Positions 17,662 to 60,100 of a stretch of 64,000 nucleotides of DNA are shown one piece after another. A program made the translations under genes and the position numbers. Positions within the stretch are counted from its first letter, which is position 1. The number at the start of each line of letters is the position of its first letter. A model generated the notes under the pieces. It did no database searches, had not been told where the DNA came from, and saw nothing but the letters and a program-made list of their open reading frames with translations. The stretch covers positions 24,120,410-24,184,409 of the forward strand of contig NC_133223.1 in NCBI RefSeq assembly GCF_040436345.1, in the 5' to 3' direction. Source of the DNA: Pagrus major (lineage: Eukaryota; Chordata; Actinopteri; Spariformes; Sparidae).

Positions 17662-18129
17662 AGAACATAGAGAAAGTGAAACTGTCAATACAAACTTTCT
17701 GGTGTCTGCTTGTGAGGAAGTCCTATATCTATTTGTGAAGTACTCAAACCTAGAGTGTTAGCTTTCTAATTGGTTTCATGGGTGAGATTGTATTGAATCT
17801 TGAATTTAATCAACAGCATCTAGACTAACAACTAAAACAAACTAGAATTACCACATCACGGTTGTATGTGTAAGGGGGGGTTTAATGTAAGGGGGAAAGG
17901 TGGGTTCTTTTTTATCAGGTGGAGATCAATACTGAGGAGACCAAAGAGCCAAAGTTCAAGTTAAAAACAGTTCAAATGTATTTAACACTTGTTTGAATGC
18001 ATATAGTTAAGAGTCCCAAATATATTAAAATCCATTTTAAAAGAGTCCCAAATATGTTAAAAATCCAGTTCAGTTTAAAGGATCCCCAAATATATTAATA
18101 TCCCAGCATCCCTTAAAACCTGCAGTCCA

Positions 18130-19309
18130 GTGTATCAGAGAAAAGGTGGTGGCTCGTCAGTCTCCCTCTCGCCACCAGCCTGGTATACCACCGTCCTTGC
18201 TCGGCACGGTGTAAAGCCACTCCTAAAGAAACCCACCCTAGACTCAGCTGACATCCAAAACTACAGACCTGTATCTCTTCTTTCATTCCTCTCTAAAAAC
18301 CTGGAACGCGCCGTCTACAACCAACTGCCCTCCTATCTTTCACAAAACGACCTCCTTGACCCAAAACAGTCAGGCTTCGGGACTGCTCACTCCACTGAGA
18401 CGGCCCTCTTCACAGTGACTGAGTTCCTCATTGCCGCCAGAGCCTCGTCCCACTCATCCATCCTCATTCTCCTCGACCTATCTGCTGTGTTTGACACAGA
18501 CAACCACCAAATCCTCCTCTCCACTCTGGCTGAACTTGGCATCGCTGACTCTGCTCTAACCTGGTTCACATCATACCTGACAAATCGCACCTTTCAAGTC
18601 ATTTGGAATGGCTCCTTGTCCAAACCCTGCTTTCTGGAAACTGGTGTCCCTCAAGGCTCAGTACTACGACCACTTCTGTTTTCACTATTCACTAGATCAC
18701 TAGGCTCTGCAATCACATCACATTGATTCTCCTACCACTGTTATGCAGACGACAACCAACTGTTTATCTCTTTCCCCCATCCTCTAACACCCACGTTGCA
18801 ACGCACATCTCAGAATGTCTGGCAGACATCTCCGCTTGGACAACTGCACATCACCTCAAGCTCAACCTTCATAAATCTGAACTCTTCTTCATCCCGGGGA
18901 AAGACTGCCCTCGCATGGACCTGTCAATCACTATCGAGGACGTCACAGTATCGCCTTCATCGACTGCGAGGAACCTGGGTGTAATCCTCGACAACAGACT
19001 ATCCTGCACCCCCAACATCACTGCTGTGGCCCGATCCTGCAGATTTGCCCTCTACAACATCCGCAGGATCTGGTCTTTCCTCACAAAGGACGCAACGCAA
19101 CTCCTGGTCCAAGCGCTGGTCATCTCCCGTCTGGACTACTGCAACTCGCTCTGGACTCGCTGGACTCCCTGCCTCTGCGACTGAACCGTTGCAGTGTATC
19201 CCGAACGCTGCAGCGCGCCTCATTTTTAATCTACCCAAATTCTCCTATGTGACCCCCCTCCTCCGTGACCTCCACTGGCTTCTTATTGCAGCCTGCATTC
19301 GATTCAAGA
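18130..19309 (+). mobile_element. L2-like LINE fragment, copy 2
   Basis: Duplicate of the element at 11943. It keeps the same TGA before FSYHCYADD and the same later frame shift. It also has its own damage in the thumb: after ISRLDYCNSL the frame runs into TRWTPCLCD and stops at 19182-19184, where copy 1 reads on through LLAGLP. Shared damage dates the insertion before the duplication and private damage came after. Confidence 0.85.
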
Positions 19310-19440
19310 CATTTACATTTAGGGCATTTAGCAGACACTTTTGTCCAAAGCGACTTACAATAAGTACATTTGTCACAAAAAAGAAACCACAACATATCAC
19401 CGTCAATAAAGTAGAAAAGGAAAAATAGAAACAGTTTTCA
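19310..19440 (+). repeat. Teleost repeat at LINE end, with duplication breakpoint
   Basis: Same GGGCATTTAGCAGACACTTT repeat as at 13124. Right after GAAACAGTTTTCA (19428-19440) the sequence switches straight into the OR6 promoter block. In the first unit the same point continues AAGCCCTCATCTGAGC. This is a visible rearrangement junction. Confidence 0.65.
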
Positions 19441-30307: not shown

Positions 30308-33300
30308 CTACTGGGACGTGTCTCCTTGGATCAGTAAACTGCCCAGCAGAGCCCCAGAAAGAGCACCAACTGCTGCTCCCAGCACAGCGCCCCCAGCCCT
30401 CAGCTGCGACGGAGACCAGGCAGCCTCCAGTTGGCTCACTTGACTTGCAGCCTCTCTCTATGGACACAGAATCAGAATCAATATATCAACAAACCAGACT
30501 ATCATCCCAACATTCAGCACTATCAAGTGCACAGTGTCATGTCCAAATATAAACAAAGTAAAACAGTTTGTCATCAGTCAATGAAGATCTTTCTCTTCTG
30601 ATTACTTTTTGCGACATAATTATAAGATAGGTCACTTGTATCGCACCGGTATCTTTTTTCACTCACCTTCTCAGGTAGCATGATGCCATTGTCCAACACT
30701 GGCTGCCCTTTCTGTTCCATCTCTGTAACTAAGAGAAGTTTGTGGCATTTACCTGGCTATATGGTAACAATCAATCAGAGGATATTCATCATTTTGAGAA
30801 CTACACGAGACTTGGAGTCTGTAACACTGATTAGGTCGTACTCACTGGGTTTAACAGTGTCTCCAGTGTGACTCAGTGGCACTGTGGATGAACGTTTTTG
30901 TTGCTGGGCGATCATCTCCAATGACTTTTTCTGATTGTGCCTCTCCATCCCTTCGATTGTGGCTTCAAACTCCTTCTTTCTATCTTCACTTTCTCTCATC
31001 AGCTGTTCAATTGTCTCTTTAAGCTCCTCTGCTTCTCTTATGCGATTCATCATCATTTGGTCGATCTCTTTATCTTTCTTCTCAGTCTTTGTCTTCTCTA
31101 ACTCTTGTCCCTTCATTCTTGCCTCTTCCTCTCTTCGCACTTCCTCTTCCACCTCAATCATTTGCTTTGCAGCGTTAATCACATTATCTATCAGAGCACA
31201 TCTTTTACTCAGGCTTGATATCATTCTGTCTTTCCCCATTACATCTTCTTTGAGCTGGTTGTTCTCCATCTCAGCCTCCTCTATTCTTCTTCCAGTCTCT
31301 TCTTTGTACTCTTTGAATTCCCTGTCTCCTGTCTCCCTCTCCCTCTCAATTGTTGCCTTCAGAGATTCAATCTGCTCATCTTTCTCTTCAGCTGTCCTCA
31401 CCAAATCGTCTACTGTCCTCTCCTTCTCCTCGACTGTCTTCCTCAGGAGATCCCTGTTCTTCTTTGCCTTCTTGAGCTGTCTTGCAGTCTTTTTGGAGCT
31501 TTCATCGAGCCTCCTGTTGCTTTCTTGGAGTTCCCTGAAACTGTCCAGCAGGTGTCCAGAGTCATTCTTCACCTCCATTTCCTCAATCTTCGCCAGCAGT
31601 TCCTGAACGCCTCCGACCTTGTTTGAGTTGTCAAATACGTGATATCTATTCCCACATTTGTCAACTAACCACTGAAGGGCAGGCCATCTCTCAATGTGTT
31701 CCTCGATGGGAGTGTCTCCCAGTTTGTCGCCCCAGGTGAACAGCACAATGGTTCGAGTCCAACTCCAAATGCCAAGGAAGCTCAAGTGTTCCTCCACTTT
31801 CAACCGGTCGGTTGCAGTGAAAGTCTCATCGCTCCGTACAACCACCAGGACAGCATTAGGAAGGGGGTCACACAGAGATGCACTGTGGGTAATCTGCTCT
31901 TGTACCTCCCGTGGAGTGTCCTCTGGGCAGTATCTCCCATGCCAGCCAGGAGTGTCAACCACAACGACTCGCTTATTGTGAACATCAGCCTGGCTCTCAG
32001 TGGACAATGATGTTGGATGTCCTGTAGGAAAGACTTCATCACCAAGTATGGTGTTTCCAGCTGAGCTCTTCCCAACCTGCTTCTGTCCCACAATAAGAAT
32101 CTGAAGCAATGGAACCAATGGAAACTTTCCTGGATTAAAAGAAAAAGCAGGATATAAGCAACAACATTTTGCCAGGAATTTGTCAAGCTATGGTCCTGTT
32201 TTCATGTTTTATTGTGGTGACTAACTCCTCTCTCGTTTTAGATCCCCATCCTGTCCTTGTGTGTTTCCCACCAGTGTGATTGTCTGCCCCTCCCTGATGT
32301 GTTTCCCATGCATCCAATTATCCCCTCCTTCCTTGTGTATTTAGTCTGTGTGTTCCTCTGTCTCGTCGTCAGTTCATCTTTGTCTCTCCTAGCAAGCGTT
32401 CCTGCATTCTTCCTTGTGTGTTTTTGACTTCTCGTGTTTTTGACCCTGTTTAGGATACTCAGTCCTTTTGCCTGGCCGTTGTTATTTGTTTGCCTGATCT
32501 CTCTGTGGATTTCCTGTGTGCTGACCGATTTTTTAAGAAAAACTTGAACTGTCTCTGGGTCGTGCTATTGGGTTCCAACCTGTGCGCAACAAATTGTCAT
32601 CTCGGAAAAATCTCATGTTTTGATGCTGACCTTATTTCAGAAAAATATGTATGGTAGTGAATGGAGAGATTGTGCCATGAGCTACACACATGATGTTTGT
32701 GAATTAAAAAGAAAAATTTCAGATTAATAAAGTCGTAGTTTGTGGTAAATATGGTAAAATATCATCGGGTTTTGTGGTAAACAAATGTCAGTGAACTACA
32801 CTGTCTCGCTCAACACACGTCACCAACACCAAAATGGCCGCCGCCTCAGTGACAACTGCGGTTACATGAAAGGGGAGTTCATCAGTTCTGTGAGCTACGT
32901 AATATACAGGACCAGCTCTGCAAGGTTTCGGTTCAACGAGACGACGTCACTAACGCGACTGTTTAGTGTAGTCTTATAATTAGGTATGTTCACAGTCTTA
33001 TATTTCATGCTTCTCAAGTCAGAAAAATCATCTTTTCAATTTTCAGACATCGTACGTGTAATTCATAGCACAATTCAAGCAGGAATCTCCATTCACTACC
33101 ATACATATTTCTTCTGAAATGCGGTCCCATGGTGGTCCACTGGAAGGGGCGTGACTTCGGCTCTCTAACTTTACTAAGAGTAACCAACTTTAAAGCAAGC
33201 AGTTGCTGATTTCCACATTCACCAGATATGAAGCAATTTGAGCATTCATTTGTTGAGTTATAATTTAATAATCACTCTCTTTTTGGCTCAGTCTTTGGCT

Positions 33301-35597
33301 TCCAACAACTACTGAAGGAAAAATCTGGCTCTTCAGCTCCGAGTTTTTGGGGAACACTTTAAAATAACAGTCATTGAATGATTAAACTTTTATCGTTAAT
33401 AGTTATTTGACTGATCACAATCAATGAAGATTTATAAACCATTTATTAAGTAATTGTAAAGGTTTATAAACATCAGTTGCAGCTTTATAATGGCCATTCA
33501 AATAATGTTTGTACATAAACTACACAGTAAACTATTACCAAAATATTATAAACATCAGTTGCAACTTTTTTTATTCTGTTTTTGGCCTTTATATGGCTTT
33601 ATTGACAGGGCAAGCTTGAGAGATGACAGGAAACAGGATGAGAGAGAGGGGGAGTGACACGCAGCAAAGGGTCCCAGGCCGGGACTCGAACCCGGGGCCG
33701 CTGCAGCAAAGACAAGTCCTCTGTACATGAGACATGTCCTGACCTTGGGACTTTCACAGCCATTTTTGCGGTGACCGGGCAGACCATAAGCACAGCGTTG
33801 TGACTAGAGATAAATATAAAATTGAACCTAAACAAATGTCAAGTAGTAACATAAAGAAACGCTAAGTTTGTAAGTTTTGCCGTGGTTAAGTGGTTTCACA
33901 GAAACATACTTAACTGACATTTGTTCTGGTGATTGGGTTGTGTATTAGCTTTTGTTGTACACCACTGCCTTGTTTGATTTTATTGATGTTCGATACAAAG
34001 CTGTTTGTTTCATTGTGACGGCAGAGCTCTACACATGTAAAAGTGGCGCTTCAGGTGAAGGTAGAGCGTCATAGTTTGAAGTTTAAGTCCTTTGACGAAG
34101 CTGCTGTATTTGAAGAGTTGGGAGTGAGAACATGTTAGATTATTCTCTGTGGGTTCATCAGTACGATCAAGCTCTTTCTGCTCATTTGATTCAGTGTTGT
34201 TAAAAAAATATTGATTGTAGTCACTTTAAGTGATGCAGCATCACTGATGCTTACCCATTACACATCTGAGTGTATCTCTCTTCACCTCTGCATCCATTCG
34301 CCTCTGAATCGCCCTCTCTTCTACCTCTTCCCTTTCTCTCTCAGTTATTCTACAAACTTCCTCATCTGTAGTCACATAACCAACTCCTCCTGCCTGTATG
34401 TTTCCTGCAACCATTTCATCAATCTTCTCCAGAAGATCTGCAACCTGAGTGTTATCATCTTTTCTCCGTATGCTTGTGTCTAACAGGTGGTATCTATGCC
34501 CACACCTCTCCAAAACCGCCTTGAGAAACCTGCTACTTTCAGTGTAAGCCTCTACAGACGACTCATTCAGTCTCTCACACCTGGTGAATATCACTATTGT
34601 GCTTCTGCATACTCTGTCACTAAGCTGCTCAAGAGGTCCCTCTACTGTCCACTCCCTGCCTTGGTGAGAGATGACAGGTATGACCAAGAGGAAGGCGTGA
34701 GGTCCTGGGGGGCACATGTCCATACATGTTGACATGTTGGCCTTCACCAGGTCGGGCTGTTGGACTGAGTAGTGGATCCACCTTTCAGGGCTGTTGATTA
34801 CGAGGACTCGACGGCCATCACCGAGAACGCCACTTCGGCAAACACACATCTTCATGTCTCTGCTGGTATCAAACCTCTCTCGGCCGAGGATGGTGTTTCC
34901 TGTCAAACTCTTCTCCAGCCAGTCGTGTCCCAGGATGGCAATCCTCAGCTCCTGAGGACACTGTTTGTCCCCTGGTAGCAGACGGTGAAATAAGATAAGA
35001 CTTTATTGATCCCACACGGGAAAAATTTAATTGTTACAGCAGTTCAAGAGTCGGTAGCAGAGGGGAAAATGTGAAACAAGATGAAGCAAGACACTATAAT
35101 AGAAAAAGTAAGATAACAAACAAAGACTATATGTACTACATACAACTTTCACATATAATAATATTGATAATGTAATAATAATCTTTATTTATATATCACC
35201 TTTCCTAACAAGGTTAAGATGTGCTTGTATGGTGAAATAAAAAAATAAAAATATATAGACATGATTGATAATTGTGCCCATAACTGTAATGCACACGTTG
35301 TGTGTTATACAACCAATGATAATATGTCGTCATATTATCTTCCTGCTATAATACAGGCCTGTTTATTCTGCTGAGGATCAAATCCCAGAAGCAAAAATAA
35401 AGCTCATTAATATTAAGGTAACACTTTCAAATGTCATAATAAGTAGGTGGTAATTATTCTGCTACTTTCCACCAAGCAGTTAATAAATCACTGGTTATTT
35501 ATTCAATACATTTCCAGGAAACTGATGTTACGGCCTGTAAGATGTAGCAAATGTAATTCGGGAACATACCTGTCAGTGTCGGAGCTGTGCAGTCCAT
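30308..35597 (-). CDS. GIMAP8-like protein, two AIG1 GTPase domains
   Basis: GTPase of immunity-associated protein (AIG1) family; members act at intracellular membranes in lymphocytes and related cells. Five exons join in frame: 35597-35570, 34971-34255, 32129-30846, 30722-30667, 30457-30308 (744 residues). Every junction has GT/AG and compatible phase. Domain 1 (about 18-235) is degenerate: the P-loop reads GHDWLEKS at 24-31, lacking the usual Gly before Lys, and VINSPE stands where DTPG belongs. Domain 2 (about 258-430) is intact: GQKQVGKS at 263-270, DTPGW at 307, FTWGDKL at 379-385. Residues about 440-660 form a Glu/Lys/Arg-rich coiled coil. The last exon encodes a Gly/Ala-rich hydrophobic tail ([18 protein letters not shown]), a likely membrane anchor. 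No ATG opens the second domain exon, which supports one gene rather than two. Confidence 0.85.
32205..32600. repeat. Probable retroelement-derived repeat in GIMAP intron
   Basis: C/T-rich stretch with wording such as CCTTGTGTATTTAGTCTGTG and TGACCCTGTTTAGGATACTC that resembles 3' ends of fish retroelements. Family not identified. Confidence 0.3.
32634..33120. mobile_element. MITE with about 37-bp inverted ends, in GIMAP intron
   Basis: Left end ATTTCAGAAAAATATGTATG then GTAGTGAATGGAGA; the right end is the inverted copy (TCTCCATTCACTAC...ATATTTCTTCTGAAAT) at 33084-33120. No transposase. The inside includes a CpG-rich patch and short open frames without domains. Superfamily not assigned. Confidence 0.7.
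33577..33745 (-). mobile_element. tRNA-derived SINE
   Basis: On the minus strand a tRNA-like head with a B-box (GGTTCGAGTCC, complement of 33682-33692) is followed by CTGCGTGTCACTCCCCCTCT and the tail CTGTCAATAAAGCCATATAA. This is a widespread teleost SINE. No cloverleaf survives, so it is not a tRNA gene. Confidence 0.75.
34985..35150. repeat. Retroelement-tail repeat in GIMAP intron 1
   Basis: Starts GATAAGACTTTATTGATCCC, a phrase shared by many fish LINE tails, and continues into AT-rich sequence. Family uncertain. Confidence 0.45.
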
Positions 35598-43012: not shown

Positions 43013-46000
43013 TTAGTTTTGTTTCTTGGCCTCCGGGTTGCCGTAACTGGAACCTGTTTTCTTCACCTCTGTGACTCCTATGAGGCGGCGGATAGCTATG
43101 GAGGCTGTGGGGAGAACAAAAGGAAGAGTGGAGTGAGCGATGACAAATCGAGCGAAAGAACGACTGCCTTCTGAGGAGGAGGCTGCTGCACTGTTAACCT
43201 ACCGAAGATGAGGAAGATGATAAAGCCGATGATGAGGAGGGGGGAGCCGCTGACGGCCACTCCACAAGCAAAGTTGATGAGGGGTGAAAGCAGCAGGGTG
43301 GCCCAGAACAAGAAGTTCAGCAGAGTCCATAACCTGCGAGGGGGGATTATTGTGGGTCCAGGGAACTTTCCTTCCTTGTTGTAGGTTTCCTGCAACGCGT
43401 CCTGAGCAGGAGAGGAAGAAGAAATGGTTTGTACTGTATGATGATCAAGTGATGTATCAAAACAGAAAATAAACAAACAAATAAAGAACCAACCACTCAA
43501 ACAAAGTCTCAAGGGCCAGAGGCGCATTAAAGGTGCACTAAGTAGTTTTGGGGAAGAAATGTTAATCAGAAGAAGAGAAGGAGAAGGAGATCTCCAGTGA
43601 CTGACATTTTTTATGCCTAAACAAACTCTCTTTGTTTTCATGACTGAATAAACTAAAAGTCTGAGTTTGGATTTCTTCTCCAAAACTACGTAGTGCCCCT
43701 TTAAGTGTCACTAAGGAAATTTCATAGCATAAAGCCACTATTCTGCAGACTTTCAAAGTAAAATACTAAAATTTAAATGTAATTTCTGTGCATGATGTCC
43801 AATATGTGATGCTAATATATAAGTCCAAGTGAGGTTTAGTGTCTCAGTGCTCCAATGTCATAGTGTTTGATAACCACATTTGAAGGATCATTGCAAAAAA
43901 TGTGTCTTAATATAGATATATTCTATGTATACAAGACTGTTGGCCGGTATTTTGATATAGAAATTTTGTGTTTTACTCCTCAATATTGTATGTTCAACTA
44001 ACTCAAAAATACAGAATCGGTTGGGCTCTACTTCGAAAACAAGAATCTAACAACCATGTTACAGCACATGTTAACAGGAAACACTTGTCTGCAAAAAGAC
44101 AGTCAGTCACTCTCAAATGTTGTGCTCTTGTTTACATTTTGATCACAGATTGAGCCTTTAATGCCGGTTTCCCCAGAACTTACCTTCTCCTGGTAGAGCT
44201 TATGCAGCCAGTTGGCACACTCCTGCTCATCATCTGGTATATCCTCCACAGGAAACCGCCTAGAGGGTAAAGAGTAAAAAAATCATATAGGAATGAATCA
44301 ATATTTATTTTTGTGTCATACACAGAAAGCTGCACAGCAAGAAAAGAAATATAAAGTGGATGACCAAACTATCTAAAAGAGCCATTGGGAAGTTATATAA
44401 AGTATTTACACATCATTTATGAGCACTGCACCTAATTAAAAGGTTTCTTACAGGACAAAGACAGAATTACTACATTCATCAGATGTGACAAATGAGGGTA
44501 TTCAGCTAAAACTATGAAAGAGTAAGACTCTTAACCATGATGTAATGGACAATAAGATGTCATACACATTTCATGATAAATCTCTTCAAGATGACACGCA
44601 GACTTTTAGTTTTCCTCCGGTCCTTTCAGAGAACAGCAAAAAAAATTGAATAACATCACTTGTGGTCTGTTATGTCAGTTTCTTACCACCAGGGGGCTCT
44701 CTCACCTTAAACCCACCTCCTCTCTGCAGAATGCATCATCTGTTAAGTGATTTCAGGCTCTAAACCTGCTCATACATTTATAGCCGTCTCCACTCTACTC
44801 TACTAAAAAAGTATCCTCCACTATAATCCTTTTTTTAAATCATTTTTCCACTTTATTTCTCTGGTTCAGTTGTGCTGTTCCAGTGTAGCCTGTGCTAAAG
44901 GAGATAAGAAAGGGAGCATTGAAGCACCTTTCCTTTGCATTTAGAGAGTTAGATCTGCTCTTGTCATGGCTGCCTCTTCCATACTTCCAAGTCATTTCAC
45001 CCTGTACAATAATATCAGCACATCACCTTTATAAGGCAATAAAGGCTCTAAAATTAAATGTCGACATCTGAAATGAACATTTCTGCTGATTTGACCGGCT
45101 GATAAAGAAGATGCTCTAATTAGAGTCCATACAGACAGCTTTCATTTTAGCATGGCGGTAGCTTCTTTGTAACAGTTCTCTATTAGCTGAGCTAGCTGGA
45201 TGACAGACTGTGGACAGAGCAGATTAAACTATTGCATTCTACAGTTTACAAGTTTACGCTTACGGTTATTTTATTACACCTACAGTAACGAGCGTAATTG
45301 TTGTCAACTTGAGAGAACTTCCAGTTATCTTCACTTCACTCTTTGTGGAGAAGCTCAGCAGAGGAGAGGCTGCAACTACGGGATAATCAATTAAACCAAA
45401 ACGCTGAGATGTACTGATAAAAAAAAGCTAATGTCGGAGCTTATCGATACAAGGGCCTTTAATAAAAAAACCTGTTTAATATCGGGTTTTGGTACCCTTC
45501 CCTAGATAAGATAAGGGGTAGGCAATTGAAAGTTTCGATGTTCTCTTCTGTTGGGTGGAAAAATATGTGCATATATATCCGGATTGGCATCAGCACTCAG
45601 GCTATATGATGTAAAAACTGTAGTATTTGCATATTGGGTAGTTTCAAACATCCAAGATTGGTCCTCCCTGTTTCGCTCAGTTAGGTGCCTTCCTGAGCAA
45701 AAGAGACTATCCGACCGCAGACATGTTTCCGAAGCCATTCCAGTGCGAGACATCCCATTGTGTTTCCATCTCATGTCCAGCTCTTTGCTCAGTTGAGTGT
45801 CCTGGCCATTAGTGTTATTGTTCTGAAACCATAAACGTGCTGGGAAACGAGCCAACATTTTGAGCGCTCTCACCGTCTCTCTCATTGTTACGGGACAAAA
45901 ATGCAGTTGGTCGGAGGCCAGAAGGTTTAAAAATACATTTTCCACTTGAAGAAACTCAGTACAGCTGGCAGTGTAATGCATCATTATCACAATAACTGAT

Positions 46001-49000
46001 GATGCAAACGTAAACGGAGTGTATCAGTGACACTCACCTTACGCTCATGTCAGCTTTGTATTGCTTGCCGTTGACGATGCCCAGCAGAGTGGGAGTCTGG
46101 TTGTCTTTGAAGTTGAGAGTCACGTCATACACAGCAGTTACTGTCGAGAGAGAAAAAGAAAGATTAAGAACAAAAGACTCGTGCATTGAGAGGATGATGA
46201 GGTGTGTGTGCGCGTTTGTAGTCTCTACCTGTGCCCTTAAGACACTGCAGCGTGGTGGTGAATCCTTTGGTTCGGGGCAGCAGGTGGTATTTGAGCTTGG
46301 GCAGGCCTTTACTCTCTGCTACCTGCATACTGATTTGGTGTTTCGTCTCTGTGAAGCGGGTGCCCTCGCAATACAGCAGGAACTGTGGAGGGAGAAGGGC
46401 AGTGTCAATACCCGCACTACAGATCGACTGATATGGTTTTTCAGGGCCGACACGGATACTGATTATTAGTGATCAAGAAGACTGATAACAAATATTTGCA
46501 GTTATTTGTGATTTCTTAGCTTCCTAGCCTCTACCTCCTGAGCTACAGCCTCGTTTCACTGAGGACATCATCACCTGACTGTAGTATCCAACTACAGTTT
46601 AGTCAATTTGCACAGTACGATTTTGAAGCTGCATTACTGTACTTTATACTTCCACTCCACTACATTTATTGGATTACTATAGTTAATAGTTACTTTGCAG
46701 ATTTAGATTAATCAGTGTTGATAGGCTATTACTTGTGATGTGTAACCAGAGGTGGGAAGTAACAAAGTACAAATACGTTGTTACTGTACTTAAGTAGATT
46801 TTTCAGGTATCTGTATTTTACTCCAGTATTGACATTTTAGAGCCTGTACTTTCTTACTTTTACTTGAGTAAAGCAGTTGAATCAGTACTTCTACTTTTGT
46901 ACACAAGTATCTTGAGTAAAGAATGTGTGGACTCTTGCCACCTCTGCATGTTACCACTCGGATAGTGTTGTGGGCGGGACATTGAGTGAAACCACAGTGT
47001 GGTGACAACAGACAAGAGAACAAAAGCTGCATCAGAGCCTGCATTGCATTTTAAAATTAATTTATATAACCGAAAAAAAAAAAAAAAACCCAACACGGAC
47101 ACCTCGGAAAAATGCTGAATAATGACCCTGATAATCCCCCAGGACGATAATTGGTCTATCCCTTACTTACACCCACACACACATATAAAGAAGTCTCACA
47201 CAGTCTTGAGGTGACCTCCTTTCTTTTGTCCCATCCACTACCGTACTTCTGCTTGGTTGAATTACAGATCAAGTACACCTCAATGTGGTGAACACTATGC
47301 TAAAATAAAGTCAACATCTTATCTCAACAAGGAGGCAGACGACAAGTCTAGTCAAGAGTGTTCAGATTGTTTATCTGAACACAGAAAAACTATGTCATTA
47401 GTGGTGGCCTGACGCCTGACTTAAGGGGTAATTAGATCAACTGCTGATCTGCCTAATCTCACTTGATGAACTAGTTGAGTCAGGGTGAAAATCTGTGACA
47501 CAAAGTGCTTCACACCATCGGTTAAGGTGTACAACACACAGCAGGACCTTCTGCCACCAGGTAAGATGCCATGAAAGTAAGACGCTTGCTTACTTAAACA
47601 AAAAAAGAGCTGTTTTGCCTCTCAAAGCCGACTGTTTATGCACAGTGGTGAGCCCAGTTCATGAGGTTTCACAGAAAAGAATAAACACAAGCCCTCCTGT
47701 TGAGGGATTTTAAATACAGCTGGTGCACTGTGTGAACTTATGTGTGTGTATCAGAACAGAGTCCAGCCTACTTAAGAGGAACTGGTCAAAGGGCAGCATC
47801 TGGAGTTCTTCTTTTTTTCCCCGTGAAACCCAAATACCTGACATCAACTGATTAAAAACTGAAAAACAAACTGACCTCAAAGGACGATGCAATTTCATAC
47901 CGTTTTACTTTGTTTATATTTGGCGGACCCTGCCACCTTTTCTAGCTTCAAACAGTGTTCTGGGGACCTTATTTTCCTCTGAGAACAGCTTGTTTACTTG
48001 TTATGGGAAAAAAAATATTTCTGAGTTTGTCTTATTACCTCATTAATATTGTAAATATTAAAATTCTGAGTTTGAATTTCTTCTCCAAAACTACATAGTG
48101 TCCCTTAAAAGGTGCATTAGGTAGTTTTGGAAAGGAATTAAAACTCAGAAAAGGTAATATTTACAACATTAATAAGGTTATAATACAAACTCAGAAATAT
48201 TTGATTTACTTCCATCCGATTAAACAAGTCTTTAAGGTCCCCAGAACCCTGTTTGAAGCTAAGGAGGCTACTTAGAAGGGTTCTTTCAGTTTTTGGAAGA
48301 AGCTTTGTATCACTACAGTTTTGGTAGTATATGCAAATACACTATGCATCAGGAGCCTCTCATTTTTTTCCTGGCAAAAATCTGACAAAACATGTCGTCT
48401 GGCAGCTGTAGGGCTTTTGTTTCAAATACAGATTGTTGTAATTTCGGATCACGTGCGGGGCGTCTAAACAAACAACAATCAAACTGTCAAGTTAGGCAGT
48501 GCGGATAAACTATATACCATGATCCTGTGACTGCACTGCTATGTCCTTTTATCACGTAGACGATCTGCATTTTAAACTTCCGTTGTCGTGACTCTCTCGA
48601 CTAAAGGGCTCTGATTCTCGGCTAAAACAAAGCACCAGCTTGCAGTATGTCACCCATCAGCTGGAGTGTTTTTTGGTCTGGTGGAGCAGAGTATTGCATT
48701 CTGGTTGTAGCATTTTTATGATGTACTCAGGTCACTACATATCTGTTTGTTACCAAGGTGTTAGTTCTCAGGGGATGTTTCACAATCCTGCTTGCCCAAC
48801 TGGGCTAAAGTTGACTGCAAAATCCCAAATATGGTATTTGAGCAAATGGATGTGTAGCAGCATGAAAATGAATCTAAGACAGCTGCTAAACCTTAAACAC
48901 ACACACAGCTTTCTACTACGCTCTTACACTCATGCCAGAAGAGAGAAGAACACAGCATGTCTGACGTGTACCTACCCACATACATTCAGGATAGTCTTTG

Positions 49001-49727
49001 AGCCTGGTCAGCCCTTTGAAGACAGTCTTTCGGTCCTCTTCCCACTTTCTTTTGCAGAAGACTATTTCTAGGAAGTACCAGGTCCAGCCAATCAGAGGCA
49101 CCTTCAGTAGCTCATGTTTGGCTAGCACTTTAGAACTCTAGAAAGGGAGGACAGGTGTGTGTTTTCGTTGACAAGCATTAATTCAGTCACATAAAAAACG
49201 AGAGGTTTAGGTATCTTTTTTTGAGAAGAACAAGAATCAAAGTCATATTTTGGTGCATTACTGACCCCTAGGATGCCAAATCTTTCACACATGGTCCAAC
49301 CACAAAGGAAGTCGATCTCGAAGTTGTGGTTGAGGATGACGATGACATGCTCTTTTCCAAACTTGTCCACCGTAGCCTGGTCGGTGTATAGGGTGCAGTC
49401 TGTGCCCGACCACCACTCCAGCAGCATCACCAGCTCTGCATGAAGACAACAACACATCAATATAAGTGATACATGCTGAAATGAGTCGTAAATGTAATGT
49501 CTGTCTGAGCCTCAGCTGCTACAACAATATAGGAATATCATCTACTCACGACTCCAGAGGGAGTAAGAGAGTCTGCAGTTGATTCTGCGATAGAGCTGCT
49601 TGTTGATGGGCCAGAGGATGCAGGTGCAGAGCTGAATGAAGTTTATGATGAGGCCGCTAACCACGAACACAAAGCCCATCAGCAGCTGCAGGATAAACAG
49701 GCTCTTCAGGTAGGCCAGAAGAGCCAT
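43013..49727 (-). CDS. agpat3: 1-acyl-sn-glycerol-3-phosphate acyltransferase 3 (LPAAT gamma)
   Basis: ER and Golgi membrane enzyme that acylates lysophosphatidic acid and lysophospholipids at sn-2 in glycerolipid synthesis. Eight coding exons, all with GT/AG and continuous phase: 49727-49550, 49435-49266, 49137-48976, 46382-46229, 46140-46038, 44259-44184, 43401-43203, 43104-43013, giving 377 residues (human AGPAT3 has 376). Visible: N-terminal TM (11-35), acyltransferase motif I NHNFEID at 95-101 (catalytic His96 and Asp101), KRKWEEDR, motif III FLLYCEGTRFTETK with EGTR at 176-179, a YHLLPRTKGF stretch, two C-terminal TM segments (about 318-360), and the conserved end RRLIGVTE then a Gly-Ser-Ser-Tyr-Gly-Asn tail. 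The start ATG has a strong context (GCCATGG). Identification as paralog 3 rather than 4 or 5 is from sequence memory. Confidence 0.95.
43527..43704. mobile_element. piggyBac-type MITE with TTAA ends, in agpat3 intron
   Basis: TTAA, then AGGTGCACTAAGTAGTTTTG, an interior of about 130 bases, then CAAAACTACGTAGTGCCCCT and TTAA: inverted ends of about 28 bases between TTAA target duplications. Lies in the intron upstream of the 43203-43401 exon. Confidence 0.75.
44687..44701 (+). promoter_or_regulatory. CTCF-like motif in agpat3 intron
   Basis: CCACCAGGGGGCTCT fits the CTCF core closely. Single site, + orientation. Binding is inference. Confidence 0.4.
45415..46037. other. Intron sequence with an unrecognised 162-codon minus frame
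   Basis: A minus-strand open frame, 45502-45990, has no domain that I recognise and no conserved motif. It sits inside an agpat3 intron next to a GGTACCC-type repeat scrap (45415-45505). More likely chance or an old element than a gene. Confidence 0.3.
46747..46946. mobile_element. hAT-type MITE in agpat3 intron
   Basis: Ends CAGAGGTGGGAAGTAACAAA and GCCACCTCTG form short inverted repeats. The inside has the familiar GTACTTAAGTAGATTTTTCA and TTTTACTTGAGTAAA phrases of a very common fish miniature element. No exact 8-bp target duplication is left. Confidence 0.75.
47943..48261. repeat. Long imperfect palindrome in agpat3 intron
   Basis: Left arm from TAGCTTCAAACAGTGTTCTG to CTACATAGTGTCCCTT, right arm AAGGTGCATTAGGTAG to CCCTGTTTGAAGCTA. 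Arms of about 155 bases are inverted copies with scattered mismatches and almost no spacer. The centre (CCCTTAAAAGGTGC) looks like two piggyBac-type ends, related to the element at 43527, meeting at a TTAA. In pre-mRNA it could fold into a long hairpin. Confidence 0.75.
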
Positions 49728-49780
49728 GGCTGAGGAGCCTGGAGAGGTGAGTAGGCTCCTCTCTATACACTACGACCAAC
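49728..49780 (-). other. agpat3: agpat3 5' UTR part of first coding exon
   Basis: Acceptor CTCTGTTCCCCAG precedes 49780; 53 untranslated bases without ATG lead to the start codon at 49727. Confidence 0.75.
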
Positions 49781-49885: not shown

Positions 49886-49942
49886 CACGGTGGATCCTTT
49901 TACAAGCCGCGTTTACACGGTCCTTCAGCCAATACTACAGAC
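49886..49942 (-). other. agpat3: agpat3 leader exon, 57 bases
   Basis: Acceptor TGTTTTCATCAG before 49942 and donor GTG|GTAAGAAAC after 49886. It carries the last 13 codons and stop of the small upstream frame, then 14 more bases. Confidence 0.65.
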
Positions 49943-52900
49943 CTGATGAAAACAGGAGAACAGAGGATGAGAAGATATAAAACATAAAAGCTTACAGTAC
50001 AGTGTCATCATTTAATAAAGTGCACTGTGCCCGTTTCATCAAAAAGGACAGGCTGAATCGTGTTAGCGGTTGTTCTTAGTGTGGGTGGCAAGTTAACATG
50101 CTGCACAATATGGTAAAAAAAACCCATCATGATGTGATTATTGTTATTTTGACAGATATCCCGATTGTTAAAGGATTCATGATTAGAGAGCATGATCATC
50201 TTTGCATCACAATTTCATTTTCACAATAAACAATAGAGCTTTTGCCCGTTTTGCAGCTTTTGCAATTTGGGTATTATGATAAAAAAATTGACTGATACAT
50301 TTTCGGTCCAATATTGGCATATTTCAGCATCTACACGCTCTGATACAGTTGGTAGCGGTATGCACCTTTTCAGTTGGTTTACAATCTGCCAATAAAGAAG
50401 AGGAAGAAGAAGAAAAAAAAGAAGCACAGCATGCAACGCAATACAGGTTCCGCAAGGGTTTGAAGAGGAAGGAAAAAGTGTACAAGTTTAAACACAACAA
50501 ATCTTATTATAGCTGCATAAACTACAGGCTAGGAACCTCTTTAAAATGCAAAAGCAAAATTATTGGTAATTTGGTATCAGCCATGAGAAACAGTTAATTA
50601 AAAAATGTTTGCATCCCTGTTTGTAACATTTTATAGTCTAACTGGAAAAATAACTGATTAATAACTAATAAAAATCACACAAATGCTCTTTAGTTACAGC
50701 ATACTCCACCAATGACAGACCCGTTGCCAGTGGAGAAAGTCTCAAGTTTTGTCTGAGCTTGTGTGAGTTTCCTCCAACAGGTCAAACACATTCAAGTCAG
50801 GTGAACTGGAAACATTTAATTTCCCCCAGGTGAGGATGTGACTGTGTTTGTCTGACTCTTAGTGACAGACTGGGAAACTGTCCAGGGAGTTTAGATGTTT
50901 GAGCAAAGCATGCTGGGATAGACTCCACCAGTCCATGTTGCTGAATAACAATAAGCAGGTATACAGAATAAATGGATGGGGAAAAGACTGGTATGTATTA
51001 TGCAGACAACCGCCACAGACATCTTTGTTTAGGATAGGTGCACATGAGATGTTTTTAGAGACAACATCTCATATTACACGATGTAGTGGCCAGAAACCTC
51101 TGCTTGTTTGACAACTGTTCACGAAAATGGAGCATTTTTTTAGGGGTGACAATTACTACCAATGAGCGTACCCATCAGGATGAACAGCACAGACCGTCCA
51201 GCCATGAATGGACTGATCCAACATATGCACCCAAGCCCATTAAAGTGTAGGTCAAGCCAACCTAAAGCTGTTCTGAGAAACATGTCTAATCTGAGTTAGT
51301 CTTTTGCAGATCTGTGTAACGACACCCAATCCACTTCAGGACTGTCAACTGGGCATCCACCTGCTGGGTTTTACATTGCAACTTTCTCTCTTTTGTATAG
51401 GCTGCAACTCAAGATTTTTTTTCATTGTCGATTAAACTGCAGGGTATTTTCTCAATCAACCGATTAGTTGCTTGAAAACGACGTCAGATGTCTTGTTTCA
51501 TCTACAACACAAAGATATTCAGAGAGTAGAAAATATTTACATTTCAGGAGCTGGAATCAGAGTATTTTCTTGATTTTTCTCTTAAAGATTATTGATATTT
51601 AACCAATCAATCAAATAACAAAATAGTTGTCAATTTATTTAATAGTTGACAACTAATCGATAAATCGTTGCAGCTCTACATTTTGATAATCGATTTCAGG
51701 CCTTTTTCAAGCAAAAGTGTGAATCTTTGGTGGTTCCAGCATCTTAAATGTAAGAATTTGCTTCTTTTCTATGTCATTCATGATAGTAAATGAAAAAGGC
51801 CACAACAGGGACATTTCAGTGTTATAGCAGCAAAGAGGATGGCAAAAAAAAAGAGATAAGCATCAACACAAAAACAAAAGAAATAAATGAGTAAATAAAA
51901 TAAGTAAAAAAAAGCAAGATATGAACAAGAGAACAAAATAAACAAGAAACAGAAACATAATAATGAGAAGATTTATCCATTACTAAAACAATTGTCAGTT
52001 ACAGCCTCAGGTCAACTGACTGTGGAATTTAAAATTGTGTCGTGCTCCCAGTTATACTACGATTAACAGTGCAGTGCTAGCTTAGCAACATCAACATATG
52101 TACAGTCAACTGCATTCACTGCTACAACTGTGTCAGCAAACTGGCAGAAAAGAGACCGTCTGGTGTTTGTTCTTTAGAACAACAGCCTGCATGCTAGACA
52201 ACAAGGGAGAGACAGAAACATTGTGTGCCTGCGTGTCACGCTGACAAACACAGACTCTCTCTTGTTCATAAAGTGTATGTAATGACTGCTTTCTTGTGTC
52301 TTGCATATCTTTTTCACAAATGCAACTACATAAAACAAACTGAAATGGATGCCAAAAACATAAATAACTTTCCATCCTAAAAAAAAATTAAATATGGATG
52401 ACCAGAAATCCTACACGCCTTTCTTTCCAAGCAATCCAACCATATTTATAGCCATCCTTTACCCAAAGTCTGCATCACATTTCCTTAAAATACCATCTCA
52501 GCTAGAGGACAAACCATCAACCTTAAATTAAGCCACATAGTTGACACAAGGCCAGCTCATTGTGAGTTGGCAATAAGTCTTCTCCAGTGCCATCAAACAC
52601 CGTAACACAATACAAAGACTAACAAAGTGTGAAGGAAATGAAATCTTACATGCACATCCACAGGACTTCAGCCCAGGCAACTGAGCAAAACGTGTCTTAA
52701 AGTATGAAGTTGAAGTGTTGAAATACTGCCACGTGAGCATGCGTGTCATCTATCGCCTCAGTGATCTGACTATCAGTCCAAACATCCACAGTTGTCTCTG
52801 CATCATGTTACAGATTTGACCTTTGTTCCTGGTGGTCAGAGAGTGACTGGGAGGGTTAAAATGACAGTACAGCACATTTCAATTGTGGCTCCTGTGACAT

Positions 52901-55900
52901 ATTTTGGAAGGATGGTGAGCTAAAACTAAACACTAAAGAATCAAAGAGAGCAGTGTGCCGTAAGTACACGGTACAACAACTGCTACAAGTGACTGTGATC
53001 AGTTCCTGGAAAGTTACTCAGCCTGACAGTTTTTAAACTGTATTTGTTTATACAGGTAATCTCCTGAATTTGACCTTTGGCCCAGAACATCAGATGTATT
53101 AGTAGATCAGAAGTATGGAGGACTAAAACTGCCAAAATCAAAAATACATAAGGAAATAAAAAAAAAAAAACGGCGTCATAAATAAGTAAATATGTAATTG
53201 ATTACAACAAATAATAACACTAAAAATAAATGTATTTTGACTTTTTTTTCTTAAAAAAAAAAATGCTCAAACTGATTAATCCATTATTAAAAACAGCTGC
53301 CGATCAAGTTAATAGTTGACATCTAATTGATTTATTGATTAATTGCTTTGATTGATTAGTATTGGGCATCTGAGTCATCACATTATTCATGCAAATAATT
53401 CATTTGTAGATGTTTGCATTTGTTGATTTACTCTAAAAAAGATACACAGACTTGGAAGAAAAAAGAAATTGCCTCAAGCCAAGTAATTAGCACTTTGGTT
53501 GGTACTTTAAGGGCTACATTTTTTTTTGGCTTGACAGTCTATTTATTAATTTAGTTATTGGTTTATTTGACCGGGATGATGCATGTGGGCATTGTTGCAT
53601 TTAAATAAAATGCAACTGATGCAATGAGGGACTTCTAGCAATCGCTTATTTGCAGTCCTTGTCCCTCATTATGTATTTTAGGAATAAAAACACTAAAACA
53701 ACACTCAACAAAAAAATAAAAAATGAAAACAGTCAGCTTTGTGTTGTTTGGCCACAAGCAGCCAATGGAGAAGTTCCCCATCAAACCTCTGCTGTGGCAA
53801 CAAGCAGCAACTGTGTGTGTGACCGCTCAGACAGACAGGGTAGATTTGCAGACAGGCCATGAACTTTGTTCTCATTTTCTTCCACACTCTCTTCTTTCTG
53901 CTCTTTCAGCTCCTGCCTCAGGAACAATTGTGGAGTCAGTCAACTTTGAACCACAAATTTTCACTCAAGCTGAAATTAAGGCCATGATTCACAGAGCCTA
54001 GAGAGAAGTGTGTCTTATTACTAACTTTGTTTGCATTTGTGTCACCTCTAAATATAACACCACTGTGAAAAATGCAACTAACCATTAGCACTCAACATAT
54101 TTGCTTCAAGAGTTGGTGCTGGGGCAACCAAGGTCTCCAGAGAACGTTACTCAAACCAAGTTCAGACATTTTTTCTTTATCTAAAACAAATCTCATGAGA
54201 ACGTTCTTATATTATTTTTTTGTTATTTTGTTTTATTTTAACGGAGATAAAGATGCTGCTTGATGACTCGCATGCCGTCAGTCGAACCACTGCACTTTTT
54301 GTTAGCTGCACAACATTGCAGGCTATAAACTTCATAAACCGAGTCAAAACTAACGAGGAACAGCGTAGCTCATGTTTAAGGCTCTCCGTTCCGGTGGTGA
54401 CTGTCAATGAAGTCCACAAAACTACTTTTGAAGCAGATGCTGGTTGAACCTCCTTTACTACTATCCACTGCGACTGAGTGTTCGACTGACAGTGGCATCA
54501 ACAGATCGGTCAGAGAGATGCTCTGTGGTTTGCTAAAATTTTAGAACTGAAATATGAGCTCAATGCACATTTTTACTTTTTCTGACTATGTGTTTTGTCA
54601 CAGATGATGAGCAAAACATGGGACTAATAAAGGCTTGGTATAGGAGTTTAGTGTCACTGAGTGGGCAAGGGAATGAATAGTATATTTCTCATATTTGTAG
54701 GCTTAGGCGCATTAAGACAAAGTATTAGTAATAATGTTAAGTAGGCTTGGGCCAATATTAGTAATATGGAATATCACGATATCTGCTGTCATATGCGATA
54801 TTTTACACAATATGTAATATCGAACAGCTGTTACGGCACCTTCTGGCTTTTATTTTGAAAAAAAAAAACGCAAGGCGCATCGATATTTGGGACGTTACAA
54901 GGGTTAACTGGCCTGATGTAGTGGCATGCACAGAGCGCTTTAACATACAGACATAGAGGACGCAGTCTGTGGGAAAGCCAGCTCGCCAATTTGGCAATAT
55001 TTCACATTTGAAGCGCGACAAAATGGCGAGCCATGGGATTCGAATGAGGCTACATGTCGTCGTAATCAGGTGTTAACTAAACCGGGCAACAACACAAATT
55101 TGAAGTCTCACCTCATTATCCCGCACAGTCGGCGAGTCCAACTTAGGGAATGAGCGGCTATAACATCGCCTAATGCGATGATATCATCTTCTGGATATCG
55201 CCCAAACCCAATGTTTAGTGTTTATAAAAACTTATCAAATAAAAATATCTATAACATATGCATGAATCAAAGAAGCACATGGCAAATTAATATACTGAAG
55301 ACAACCCCCTGACTTTACAGCGCCGACTCCGAAAATCCTGATTCGGGGACAGTCTTACTTCATTGATGTCAGGGAGTATGTTGTTTGCTTTTTGCACCAA
55401 ATGAATTATAAACATGATAAACTCTCAAATACACTACTCAAAATTAGTTAGGGAAATTGGGATATTTAAGTGTTTCACTTGATTGATTCTGCGACATATC
55501 TGAATTGTTGTTTTGTGACTATTTACAAAATTAATGCAACACATTTCATTTGACTTTTGTCAATATATACGCATCCATATCCCAATATCTCCAACTCATT
55601 TTGAGTAGTGTACTTGTGAAACTAAAATATGATTGCATTTTTAATGCAGAATAAATACAATATTTTCAATTATCCTTGTTTACTTTCAGTTAAACTATGT
55701 TTAAAGTACGGAGAGTGTACCAGACTCTTTGCCTTGTATTGTGAATTAAACTTCTGTTGAGCTGAAGGTATTTTGGGTCACGGATGTGTGTACATAGCTA
55801 ATGTTGAAATTTGACTTCCCTTTACACCACTGTTTCACCCAACAACGATCTTAACCACAGTAAAGGTTTAGAGCCAGACAAAAGCGTGTTTTTGAAACAC

Positions 55901-57071
55901 TGCAATAAATAAAGACATCAAATTAAGAATTTAATGAAGATCCTCTAAACTGGCTATCAAACAGTTCATTAAGGATATGTATTGAGTGGGACAGTTGAAA
56001 AACTAAAAAATTAGTCAGCGCTCCCTGGTAAACAAACTTTGAATGTGTGATACTGTTCGGCTAGCTTCGCTGCAAAACCAGTCTGTTCTACTCGATTTGT
56101 GTGAGACAAGAGCGCTATATGTCCTACAAAAAACACCATATATATCGTCTGTTATAATGTATTTACAAGCATGACCAAATAATGACAATATAAATGTTTG
56201 TCTATATGTGAGGTCAATAGATAAACAGCTCTTTGTTTCTCAGCCCAAGTGTATCAGTGCTCCATTTCAGCTATCCAGGTTAGTAGTAAAGTAGTCAGAG
56301 GAGGCATTTAAATCCCAAATTGATCAAAACGTTCACACTTTAACTCACTCCTCAAAACCCTCATCAGATGATAACAAAATATTGAGCTTCAAACATCACC
56401 ATGACTTCATCACCATGACGCACTAATCAATCAAATCAGCCTCTTCCTTGTGGTGTTCTGAAAGTGTTCTGGTTTAACCAAACTTCAGTTGTTCCCTTTC
56501 TCTTTTTGTCAAAGATGGAATAAAATGAGTTCAGAGAAACAAACATTGGGTTTGACCATGAAAACAACCGCGGGACCCTGTGGGTGCAGGGCCCCCTTGT
56601 GACCCCACTCAGCCTGGTAGAAAGATTAGAGACGCTGACTGGGTTAAAGCTGCTTAAGGCCGGACAGCCGCTTCTGCTCTGCATCACCTGAATACAGCTT
56701 CTACGCCCAACAAATGACTACTGCTTGCTAGGACTCTCTAACATGATAAGACTGTTGAAATGTGCATTAGAAGACATCAGCTAAATACTGGAAAACCTCA
56801 GGAAAATCTTGGCAGGTACCGCAACTTTGCAAAGTCGTTTTAATTCGGACAACTTCATTTGGCTTGCAAAATTTGAAAGGCTGATGCCCTGGAGTGCAAT
56901 GCTGACATCTCTCTTTTTCACAAGTTGTAAGAAATCTAGTGGGGCCCATCCTAGCCTAGCCAAACCACTTCTACTGAATTTAACTTACCAGTAGACATAG
57001 TAGGCCATTGCCATGACCACCAATGCCCCACAGATCCCAGTGAAGATCATCACAGCGCTCTGGTTCAGCAT
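49900..57071 (-). CDS. Predicted 41-residue membrane microprotein in agpat3 leader
   Basis: ATG at 57071 in good context (GCCAAGATGC). Exon 57071-56989 encodes 27 codons plus two bases, splices through TG|GTAAGT to the exon at 49942, completes a Trp codon, and reads 13 more codons to TAA at 49902-49900. The peptide begins MLNQSAVMIFTGICGALVVM, continues AMAYYVYW as the rest of one TM helix (about 6-27), and ends SVVLAEGPCKRGL. I do not recognise a family. The stop lies 67 spliced bases before the agpat3 ATG with no ATG between, so the two could share an mRNA and agpat3 could be made by reinitiation or leaky scanning. Clean splice sites, exact phase match and membrane-like composition favour a real product, but it could be a plain uORF. 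Function unknown. Confidence 0.5.
51399..51678. mobile_element. hAT-type MITE
   Basis: Ends GGCTGCAACTCAAGATT and ATCGTTGCAGCTCTA are inverted. The inside has GAAAATATTTACATTTCAGG and AGCTGGAATCAGAGTATTTT, typical of a very common teleost element. A worn relative is at 4920. Confidence 0.75.
53114..53240. mobile_element. One-armed copy of the 39603 MITE
   Basis: GTATGGAGGACTAAAACTGC then CAAAATCAAAAATACATAAG match the left arm at 39603; no right arm is present. Confidence 0.65.
54743..55210. mobile_element. hAT-like MITE, about 470 bases
   Basis: Left end AGGCTTGGGCCAATATTAG, right end TCTGGATATCGCCCAAACCC: imperfect inverted ends of the TTGGGCGATAT kind. CpG-rich interior, no transposase. 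Confidence 0.6.
55432..55610. mobile_element. Tc1/mariner-type MITE with TA duplication
   Basis: CACTACTCAAAATTAGTT at the left and AACTCATTTTGAGTAGTG at the right are inverted copies differing at one site. TA flanks both sides (55430-55431, 55611-55612). 179 bases, non-coding. Confidence 0.8.
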
Positions 57072-57131
57072 CTTGGCTGCTGGTTCTCTCACCGAATCAA
57101 AGCCAGAATAATAAAAACATACAGAAAAGGC
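56989..57131 (-). other. agpat3: agpat3 leader exon with microprotein start
   Basis: Acceptor CTGCTCTTTGCAG before 57131, donor CTACTG|GTAAGT after 56989. Contains a 7-codon upstream frame (ATG at about 57121) and then the ATG of the 41-codon frame at 57071. Confidence 0.65.
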
Positions 57132-60100
57132 CTGCAAAGAGCAGTGGACAGTCACAGGCTCTCCTGCTTCACAGCCATAATAATCCCACAGAACGAAAGA
57201 GGGAGATTATGATGATGACAGCAAGAACACAGACAGATCCCAGATCCTGTTGGAAGAACTGCCTAATCAGCACAAGAGTTTACTGAGAGCCAAATGACAT
57301 GAAAGTACAGATCTCTTGAGGTCCAAAATCTCCCAAAGGCGCCAGTGGATTCTTACAACAGTCCACCAATGAATGCTAGGAAGTCTGAAAGATGGCTCAC
57401 TTCTGGAAGGAGGGAGGCACACATGTACTGTAAGCAGTGTCTTACATGCATTCCCATCCTCTAATCCACTGGATCAGATTAGTGCTGATTAGCAGGCTAT
57501 GGGCACCCTGGATATGTCACATTTCATTAACATTAACAAAGAAGAAGGCCGGGCTCTCCCATACCAGCGTGGAGTTAGCAGAATGGCATCTGTTACGCCA
57601 AAGGAACCAATCACCACGTAGAGTTTCTCGCCTCACCTTGCCATTGGCCAACTGTTAGTGACACCTCGTATTAGGCAGAAGTGATAACCTCGAACAGAGG
57701 GCCAAGAGTTTCCTTAAACAACCTCTTCAGGTGTGTTGCCAAGCTGTGCTTTGTTTTGATCAAGTGTAATTAGGATGCATTAAGCCAAAGACTAGAAATC
57801 ACTGATACCTGGAATTCAGTACCTTTTTTCTATACTTTACTCTGTACAGACTTGCTCCTAGGATGGTCCCCCTTCCCGAGTTGGGAAGTCGTTCTTCCGA
57901 CTTCAGTGTGTTCATGGCATCAAGTCGGAATTCTGGAGTAACATGGAGGCCAAAAACTATGTTTTGATTTTTATCTCTCAGAGCATTTCAACAACACGTT
58001 GACGGCTGTATCCACTAATTGAGTGACAAGGTAGGGCAAACCCATCTATATAAACAACTGCCAAATAGAGCATCAATAACAAGCAGTAAAGGGCAGCAAT
58101 ACGCTGTTGCAACGTCTTGTCTGTCACATCCAAAAAAGAAGAAACACAGGAATTTTATCATGATGTCACAACAGCAGTGCTTGCATACTGCAATGTTTTC
58201 TTGCAAATTGTATGCAAGACACATACTGTTGGTTTGGGACTAAGTGAAAAAAACTCATACTGTTTTAGCGTACTAAACCACATGGTGGTAAGGAATTTCG
58301 GACGTAGCCAGTGGCTGAATTTTGGTCATAAAATAAGATAACGTCAACAAAGACAGTGAAAAAAGCCCAGTTATCTCCAATAACTTCTCCATCTAGCTAA
58401 CTAATTGCACACAGATGTCGATAAAGTTGTTGGTGCCTTGTCAACCTTGCAGGAGGGTTCAGGGGGGACCAAGCGTTCAGGCTTTCAAACACAGCACAAT
58501 CTTTAAATTATAGATATATAATAGAACGTGTTGCTCTGTCAGCTTTGCATATTTCATCACAAATATTGCAGCAAGTGTTGCCCTGACTCAACTTGCTCTA
58601 GGGCTGATACCTCAGTTGATTTATTGAGAATCAGTACTCTGTAGTACCAACATAATTTGGTTGGTACCCTTAAAATGATAGAATTCGGTACCCAACCTTA
58701 ATCCTCCTCTCGGATAGTTCTGGGCAGTATGACCTTGAAATAATAATTAGTTTTTGGCCATATGGCAATATATGATACATACCTTGATATTTATGAAGTG
58801 CTTTTCTCCTCAAAAGCACTTCATAAATGTTACAACTGGGCAACAAAAAACAAATACCACAATATTTTTGACCAAATGGCCACTTCTTTAATATTGCAAC
58901 AATATTGTGAGGTATTTTTTACAAAATATTAAGATTTCTGATAAATATTCATCAGAAATGTGGATGTAATGACTAAGTGGGTGAAGACAAGCATTAGAAC
59001 AAATACAACAGTCCGATACATATTGTATATATTGCCTGGCCGTACTCTCTCATCTTCTTGACAGTACCTTGAAACAGTATTTACAACATGTCTGTTTGGT
59101 TCACCCACACAGAGATGAAAAACAGAGCTGGTGGGAAAGCCAACAAAAGCCTTTGGGTTCCTACACAGAGCTAAAATCAAATGGGTGGTTCAGACAAGCT
59201 GGCAGAGAGATGCATAAATAAACTCCAGGGTTTACTGAAGCAAATGGGTCAAAGGTTAGAGTACAGTCCAGAGGCTCTGCCATGGGGCATCAAAGCCAAA
59301 TATAAAAAGAGATAAAAATACATTGTGATAGCTGGACAATGAAGGGCATTCATGTTTCAGAGCATGAAGTGCTTTCAGTCCTGCACCACTGTGCTGCTGA
59401 ACACTCACATTTTAAAGCCACACCACTAAACTACAACTACAGCCATGTTACCCCTTTCACGCTGAAAAAATCAAAACAGAACACCCACTAACATCTGGCT
59501 TATTTATTGAATAGGAAAGGCTACAATCGGCCTTCATTCTGGTCAACTGACTCTGCAGTAGTTATGAGTGTTTATCTGCTCCAGCTCCCATCAGCAGTGA
59601 TGGAAATGCTAATTTTCAGCCCAGTTTCAGTGCAATGCTATTATGTGCATTGAAGTAAAGGATACTGGTGCACAAATACTTTCCTGATTGTCTCCATTCA
59701 AGCAACACTTGACTGTGTTCAGTTGTCATTGAGTTTGAAAGAGAGACTCAAGTTAAATATCTTAAAAAGTAGCTGCCATAACATTATCACTGTACCCAAA
59801 CCTTGCCAGCTCCCTCATCGGTACTGCACATGTTCAATTGTCAACAGATATTTTAAGGCAGAATGACGTCTCACTCCTTCGCATCTTCCGTTATTAGCTC
59901 TGGAAAATATAATGCCTCTAATTCTGAATGTTATTGTTGAAGAGACTCTTTTAAAACAAGTTTTAACGTCTTCTTGAGGTAATCTGACGAGGTATATGGT
60001 CTGCTGCCTTCTACGGTTACCTGCTTTCTGTTCTCAGAAACACTCAAATACTCCATATAAAGACTTTGCAGAAGGGTTCACTATCTAAGAGAGGACAGAA

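Follow-up and report, generated by a model that had tools for sequence, protein, structure and literature searches.

A hydrophobic upstream reading frame in the candidate 5′ leader of agpat3 in Pagrus major

We analysed a 64,000-nucleotide stretch of the Pagrus major genome (RefSeq assembly GCF_040436345.1, contig NC_133223.1, positions 24,120,410 to 24,184,409 of the forward strand; hereafter the window), which carries the acyltransferase gene agpat3 on its minus strand. Upstream of the agpat3 coding sequence (CDS) lie two candidate leader exons, exon A and exon B. Spliced together on the minus strand, they hold an open reading frame (ORF) of 41 codons that reads MLNQSAVMIFTGICGALVVMAMAYYVYW up to the exon junction, and SVVLAEGPCKRGL and a stop beyond it (Table 1). 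A preliminary description of this DNA had proposed a bicistronic mRNA in which a small endoplasmic reticulum (ER) membrane peptide is made with, or controls, an ER acyltransferase. The leader frame is confirmed as a sequence observation, and that interpretation is partly supported. The explanation we put forward, tentatively and at somewhat less than an even chance, is that exon A is a real agpat3 leader exon, that its AUG opens a translated upstream ORF (uORF) informative chiefly in its exon A part, encoding a single-pass membrane peptide of ~28–41 residues, and that this ORF acts as a brake on agpat3.

Both leader exons have good splice signals, as had been described. Exon A is bounded by ctctttgcag/GCCTT and CTACTG/gtaagtt (acceptor 7.2 bits, donor 6.4 bits) and exon B by ttttcatcag/GTCTG and CACCGTG/gtaagaa (8.7 and 3.8 bits); the scores come from approximate matrices. 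Exon C, the first agpat3 coding exon, opens with the acceptor ttccccag/GTTGG at 49780, and the agpat3 ATG stands at 49727. With a total of 13.6 bits, exon A ranked at the top of five candidate exons on the minus strand between 49.85 and 64 kb, and exon B came third. On both strands outside agpat3 there were 18 candidate exons, two of which had an ATG frame of at least 25 codons open to the donor; exon A was the sole candidate among the 18 with an ATG frame of the hydropathy described below. On the spliced mRNA model, which joins exons A, B and C, the AUG-started ORF ends before the main AUG. Its stop precedes the agpat3 ATG by 67 spliced bases (14 of exon B and 53 of exon C) with no ATG in this gap, in agreement with the preliminary description.

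That description had also laid weight on the exact phase in which exons A and B join across a Trp codon. The join is present, but it is weak evidence, because read-through of the unspliced exon A donor also forms TGG, followed directly by TAA to give a 28-residue peptide ending in YVYW, and because direct reading of exon B found a stop in all three frames. Any frame entering exon B would thus close before agpat3, and the phase match is no test of the model. The length of exon B, 57 bases, is a multiple of three, and if it is skipped the frame continues into exon C as W followed by LVVVYREEPTHLSRLLSHGSSGLPEEPVYPAAADGLCVRG and a stop, overlapping the agpat3 start. An N-terminal extension of agpat3 was rejected because the frames differ: the leader ATG lies 193 bases from the agpat3 ATG, or 136 bases without exon B, and both distances leave a remainder of 1 when divided by three.

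The leader AUG has a favourable context (gccaagATGc, with A at −3). An earlier ATG in exon A, absent from the preliminary description, opens the 7-codon uORF MFLLFWL in a poor context (ttctgtATGt, with T at −3). A ribosome that started at the leader AUG would terminate 67 bases ahead of the agpat3 AUG. With an ORF of 41 codons followed by a gap this short, few ribosomes should reinitiate. Most agpat3 protein would then come from ribosomes that bypass the leader AUG during scanning, so that the leader ORF would be a brake on agpat3. Skipping of exon B, which would create the overlap with the agpat3 start, would probably produce a stronger brake. Besides braking, the ORF may supply a small membrane peptide. 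We infer that the leader ORF is transcribed, spliced and translated, that it restrains agpat3, and that its product resides in a membrane.

The predicted product has the look of a single-pass membrane peptide that had been ascribed to it. Its hydrophobic core, residues 6–28, is a single stretch of sufficient length to cross a membrane. Averaged over 19 residues, Kyte-Doolittle hydropathy peaks at 2.17, and the biological insertion scale (applied without positional terms) gives −0.31 for residues 6–24. The core contains small residues (TGICGA) and has an aromatic end (YYVYW). Charges are few, K38 and R39, and both lie in the tail; they predict a C-terminus in the cytosol and an uncharged N-terminus in the lumen. 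These features suggest that the leader product is a single-pass membrane protein, and a location in the ER and not in mitochondria is a guess.

Codon usage offers evidence that at least part of the frame may be coding. GC content by codon position (first/second/third) is 0.44/0.33/0.78 in the exon A part, much like the 0.42/0.32/0.80 of agpat3 exon 1; over the full agpat3 CDS it is 0.49/0.36/0.69. Synonymous codon choice was scored with a measure trained on agpat3 usage, against two backgrounds, intron composition and local composition (pairs of P values below follow this order). On the intron background exon A scored 8.14 bits, where the null mean was −11.68 (P 0.0004); on the local background it scored 5.40, where the null mean was −10.27 (P 0.0024). 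It falls within the agpat3 coding range (P 0.288 and 0.225). The whole ORF also stands above background (P 0.0026 and 0.0088). Along the same frame the per-codon score is −0.43 before the ATG, +0.20 from the ATG to the donor and −0.32 beyond the donor. The preliminary claim of a coded peptide is supported for the exon A part, where codon choice and AUG context both favour it, and is not supported for the exon B tail, whose GC values by codon position are 0.53/0.53/0.40. For the exon A half a coding role is possible; the tail is probably non-coding, or else unconstrained.

An ordinary uORF is nearly as likely as the explanation we favour. The leader exons would then be real and the AUG might be used, with the peptide an unselected chance product, as in many vertebrate uORFs; start, length and distance alone would matter, acting as a mild brake on agpat3. 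Several results point this way and weigh against an informative peptide. In its synonymous codon choice the exon B tail cannot be told from background and falls short of the coding range (P 0.003 and 0.002 under agpat3 usage); under that usage the full ORF is low as well (P 0.015 and 0.011). Between 50 and 64 kb on both strands, 103 of 6016 stop-free 27-codon windows reach the codon score of exon A, a count that includes exon A's own windows. One antisense frame within exon A, interrupted by stops, equals the ORF frame when both are scored over 26 shared codons (0.19 vs 0.18 per codon), and another antisense frame reaches 0.11. Windows of agpat3 itself average 0.43 per codon (sd 0.21), which places exon A, at 0.20, about 1 sd lower.

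Chance expectation bears on the same question. We made 20000 dinucleotide-preserving shuffles of the leader, with exon A, exon B and the leader part of exon C shuffled separately, and with thresholds that were chosen after the data had been seen. A frame of at least 41 codons arose in 4450 shuffled leaders (22%), and, as noted above, exon B has a stop in each of its frames. Since a genome has leaders by the thousand, cases like this one must arise by chance. On the other side stand the synonymous codon choice and third-position GC of exon A, and the rarity of the combination of length and hydropathy: only 94 of the 20000 shuffled leaders held a frame of at least 41 codons with hydropathy at least equal, and 189 held one of at least 28 codons with that hydropathy. 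When exon A alone was shuffled, a frame of at least 27 codons stayed open to the donor in 4850 of 20000 cases, 100 of which also matched the hydropathy and none of which also matched the third-position GC.

The search for relatives likewise leans towards a chance product. The preliminary description had matched the peptide to no described family, and no useful match was found in Pfam (best E 0.27) or among PDB chains (best E 0.59). In the species' own genome, searched as 785.9 Mb in 25 contigs, the peptide had no second copy, with only the self-match at E up to 0.001. At this same threshold, exons of agpat3 gave 15 matches, all of them either in this gene or at C15:10206222-10209548, a locus that we take to be agpat4. 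Nothing similar to the peptide was found in 20 kb at that second gene (its first coding exon and ~19.4 kb upstream), where 180 of 200 shuffles scored at least as well as the best match; this is a weak negative because of the age of the two genes. A 73-residue open frame containing the exon A peptide had no relative in viral and prokaryote contigs. The control, agpat3 exon 1, gave no match in the four collections tried, which included viral and prokaryote contigs and phage and plasmid records, and since the control was also missed, those absences say nothing on conservation. Exon A DNA is single-copy: a genome search with E allowed up to 10 (one that skips very common words) gave one match, and within the window it matches only itself. 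On these two results an origin from a transposon or repeat was rejected.

Published work fits an ordinary uORF as well. According to passages of PMC10908861, 62.8% of human coding genes show translation in their 5′ leaders, 37% of zebrafish coding genes show noncanonical translation, and <1.5% of high-scoring human noncanonical peptides are conserved in zebrafish and worm. That study took in 34 zebrafish samples. No fragment of the leader peptide was found in the text of papers. Nor was an AGPAT3 microprotein or uORF mentioned in main texts among the matches listed, with supplements outside the search; two papers that name AGPAT3, PMC13240430 and PMC10558556, are off topic by their titles and the start of their abstracts.

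A further alternative, which we judge fairly unlikely, is that exon A is coding and the transcript model is wrong. Exon A would belong to another transcript or to another join (with exon C as its immediate partner, with some unseen exon, or into a retained intron to give the 28-residue form), and neither the 41-residue product nor a bicistronic agpat3 mRNA would be made. The pairing of a coding-like exon A with an exon B that is not coding-like speaks for it, the in-frame length of exon B allows the frame to run into exon C over the agpat3 start when exon B is skipped, and the exon A frame is open up to the 5′ end of the exon. Against this, the codon signal does not extend upstream beyond the ATG, and a better downstream exon was looked for and rejected: none of 22 acceptors scoring at least 5 between 56.9 and 43 kb extends the frame with clearly coding codons, the best continuation gaining +0.8 bits. 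Continuation into exon C scores −8.6 bits overall, its first 13 codons being about neutral. That exon A is no exon, its frame and splice-like sites being coincidences of intronic or intergenic DNA, is very improbable given its rank as the best regional candidate and its singular hydropathy among the 18, even though the matrices are approximate, candidates of similar quality exist (63103–62979 at 13.2 bits and 60084–60021 at 11.3) and the interval up to pdxk, presumably the next gene upstream, has no CpG-rich 300-base stretch.

If the brake alone is real, it would give a simple account of how agpat3 output could be limited post-transcriptionally. If the peptide proves to be conserved, agpat3 would be added to the few vertebrate mRNAs that encode two proteins, here a membrane peptide alongside an ER lipid enzyme. 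A bolder version, which we judge unlikely, is that the first cistron of agpat3 mRNA encodes a single-pass ER-membrane microprotein found in fish and possibly throughout vertebrates, which would limit translation of the acyltransferase and bind either the enzyme or its membrane neighbourhood. One mRNA would then set an ER lipid enzyme together with the small peptide that regulates it. Action of the peptide on AGPAT3 protein is speculation.

The product of the downstream gene matches Pfam Acyltransferase (PF01553, E 1.1e-12) and Acyltransf_C (PF16076, E 3.5e-28). We take the gene to be agpat3 and not agpat4, on human sequences and the neighbourhood with pdxk. The next gene recognised upstream on the same strand is, judging by exon motifs, pdxk, ending near 67.1 kb in coordinates extended past the window. 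A pair of CCAAT-type boxes upstream of exon A is a weak hint of an agpat3 promoter: the window has 11 matches to such boxes, with 10.18 expected by chance, and no other two of them lie close together. The gene content of the window has the look of a bony fish. Elsewhere, the window holds eight long olfactory-receptor-like ORFs in tandem at 851–28110 on the plus strand, two of which were checked and match Pfam 7tm_4. Weak matches to this receptor cluster prompted us to consider an olfactory-receptor origin for the leader frame, which was rejected since the best match was equalled by 167 of 300 shuffles (masked window). LINE-like reverse transcriptase pieces are repeated between the receptor genes (11892–13243 and 18079–19371, with RVT_1 matched for 11892–12536), and a UnaL2 LINE 3′ element lies at 19318–19371. 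Two ORFs for AIG1-family (GIMAP-type) GTPases adjoin the receptor cluster on the minus strand, at 30775–32187 and 34241–35002.

Table 1. Features of agpat3 and its candidate leader, in window coordinates
Feature	Position	Strand	Basis
agpat3 CDS with its stop codon, 377 residues in 8 coding exons	43013..49727	-	spliced by script, Pfam
Exon C, first coding exon of agpat3, including 53 leader bases	49550..49780	-	acceptor 9.3 bits, agpat3 model
Exon B, candidate leader exon, 57 bases	49886..49942	-	splice scores, exon ranking
Leader ORF tail: last base of the Trp codon, SVVLAEGPCKRGL, stop	49900..49942	-	translation; codon choice not coding-like
Exon A, candidate internal 5′-leader exon of agpat3, 143 bases	56989..57131	-	splice scores, exon ranking
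Leader ORF, first 83 bases: MLNQSAVMIFTGICGALVVMAMAYYVY and TG of the Trp codon	56989..57071	-	translation, codon-position GC, synonymous codon test
Upstream ORF MFLLFWL and stop, 7 codons, inside exon A; poor start context	57097..57120	-	sequence reading
CCAAT-type box pair, possible agpat3 promoter	57605..57649	.	36 bases apart, ~0.5 kb upstream of exon A

Among known systems, passages of PMC4890304 report that closeness of a uORF to the CDS accompanies repression in vertebrates. The leader ORF resembles such repressive uORFs in its favourable start context and short distance to the CDS, repression here being predicted. De novo membrane ORFs arising from thymine-rich DNA are described in PMC7005711; the leader ORF is like them in being short, hydrophobic and without known relatives, and differs in that it is not T-rich, with a T fraction of 0.286 vs 0.328 in its intron. 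A closer parallel is offered by uINPP5F and uBPGM, human uORF peptides at the ER that also lower output of the main ORF, which rises when their start codons are changed (passages of PMC10908861). Those peptides were demonstrated with tags in human cells, whereas the leader peptide is predicted from sequence.

Four human mRNAs, STREMI-SLC35A4, MIURF-MIEF1, ASDURF-ASNSD1 and PYURF-PIGY, are described as bicistronic in passages of PMC13303939, whose main text has no occurrence of AGPAT (the main text being distinct from its transcript dataset). All four passed tests of ribosome occupancy and purifying selection, whereas the leader ORF is known from its sequence. STREMI, at 103 residues and in the mitochondrial inner membrane, also differs from a predicted leader product of 28–41 residues. 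The likeness lies in the arrangement, a small-protein ORF and a conserved main ORF on one mRNA, here the spliced mRNA model, and with STREMI it goes further, since STREMI is a membrane microprotein whose uORF likewise regulates main-ORF translation (PMC13303939). If real, the agpat3 leader ORF would join an already known class, that of membrane uORF peptides on bicistronic mRNAs.

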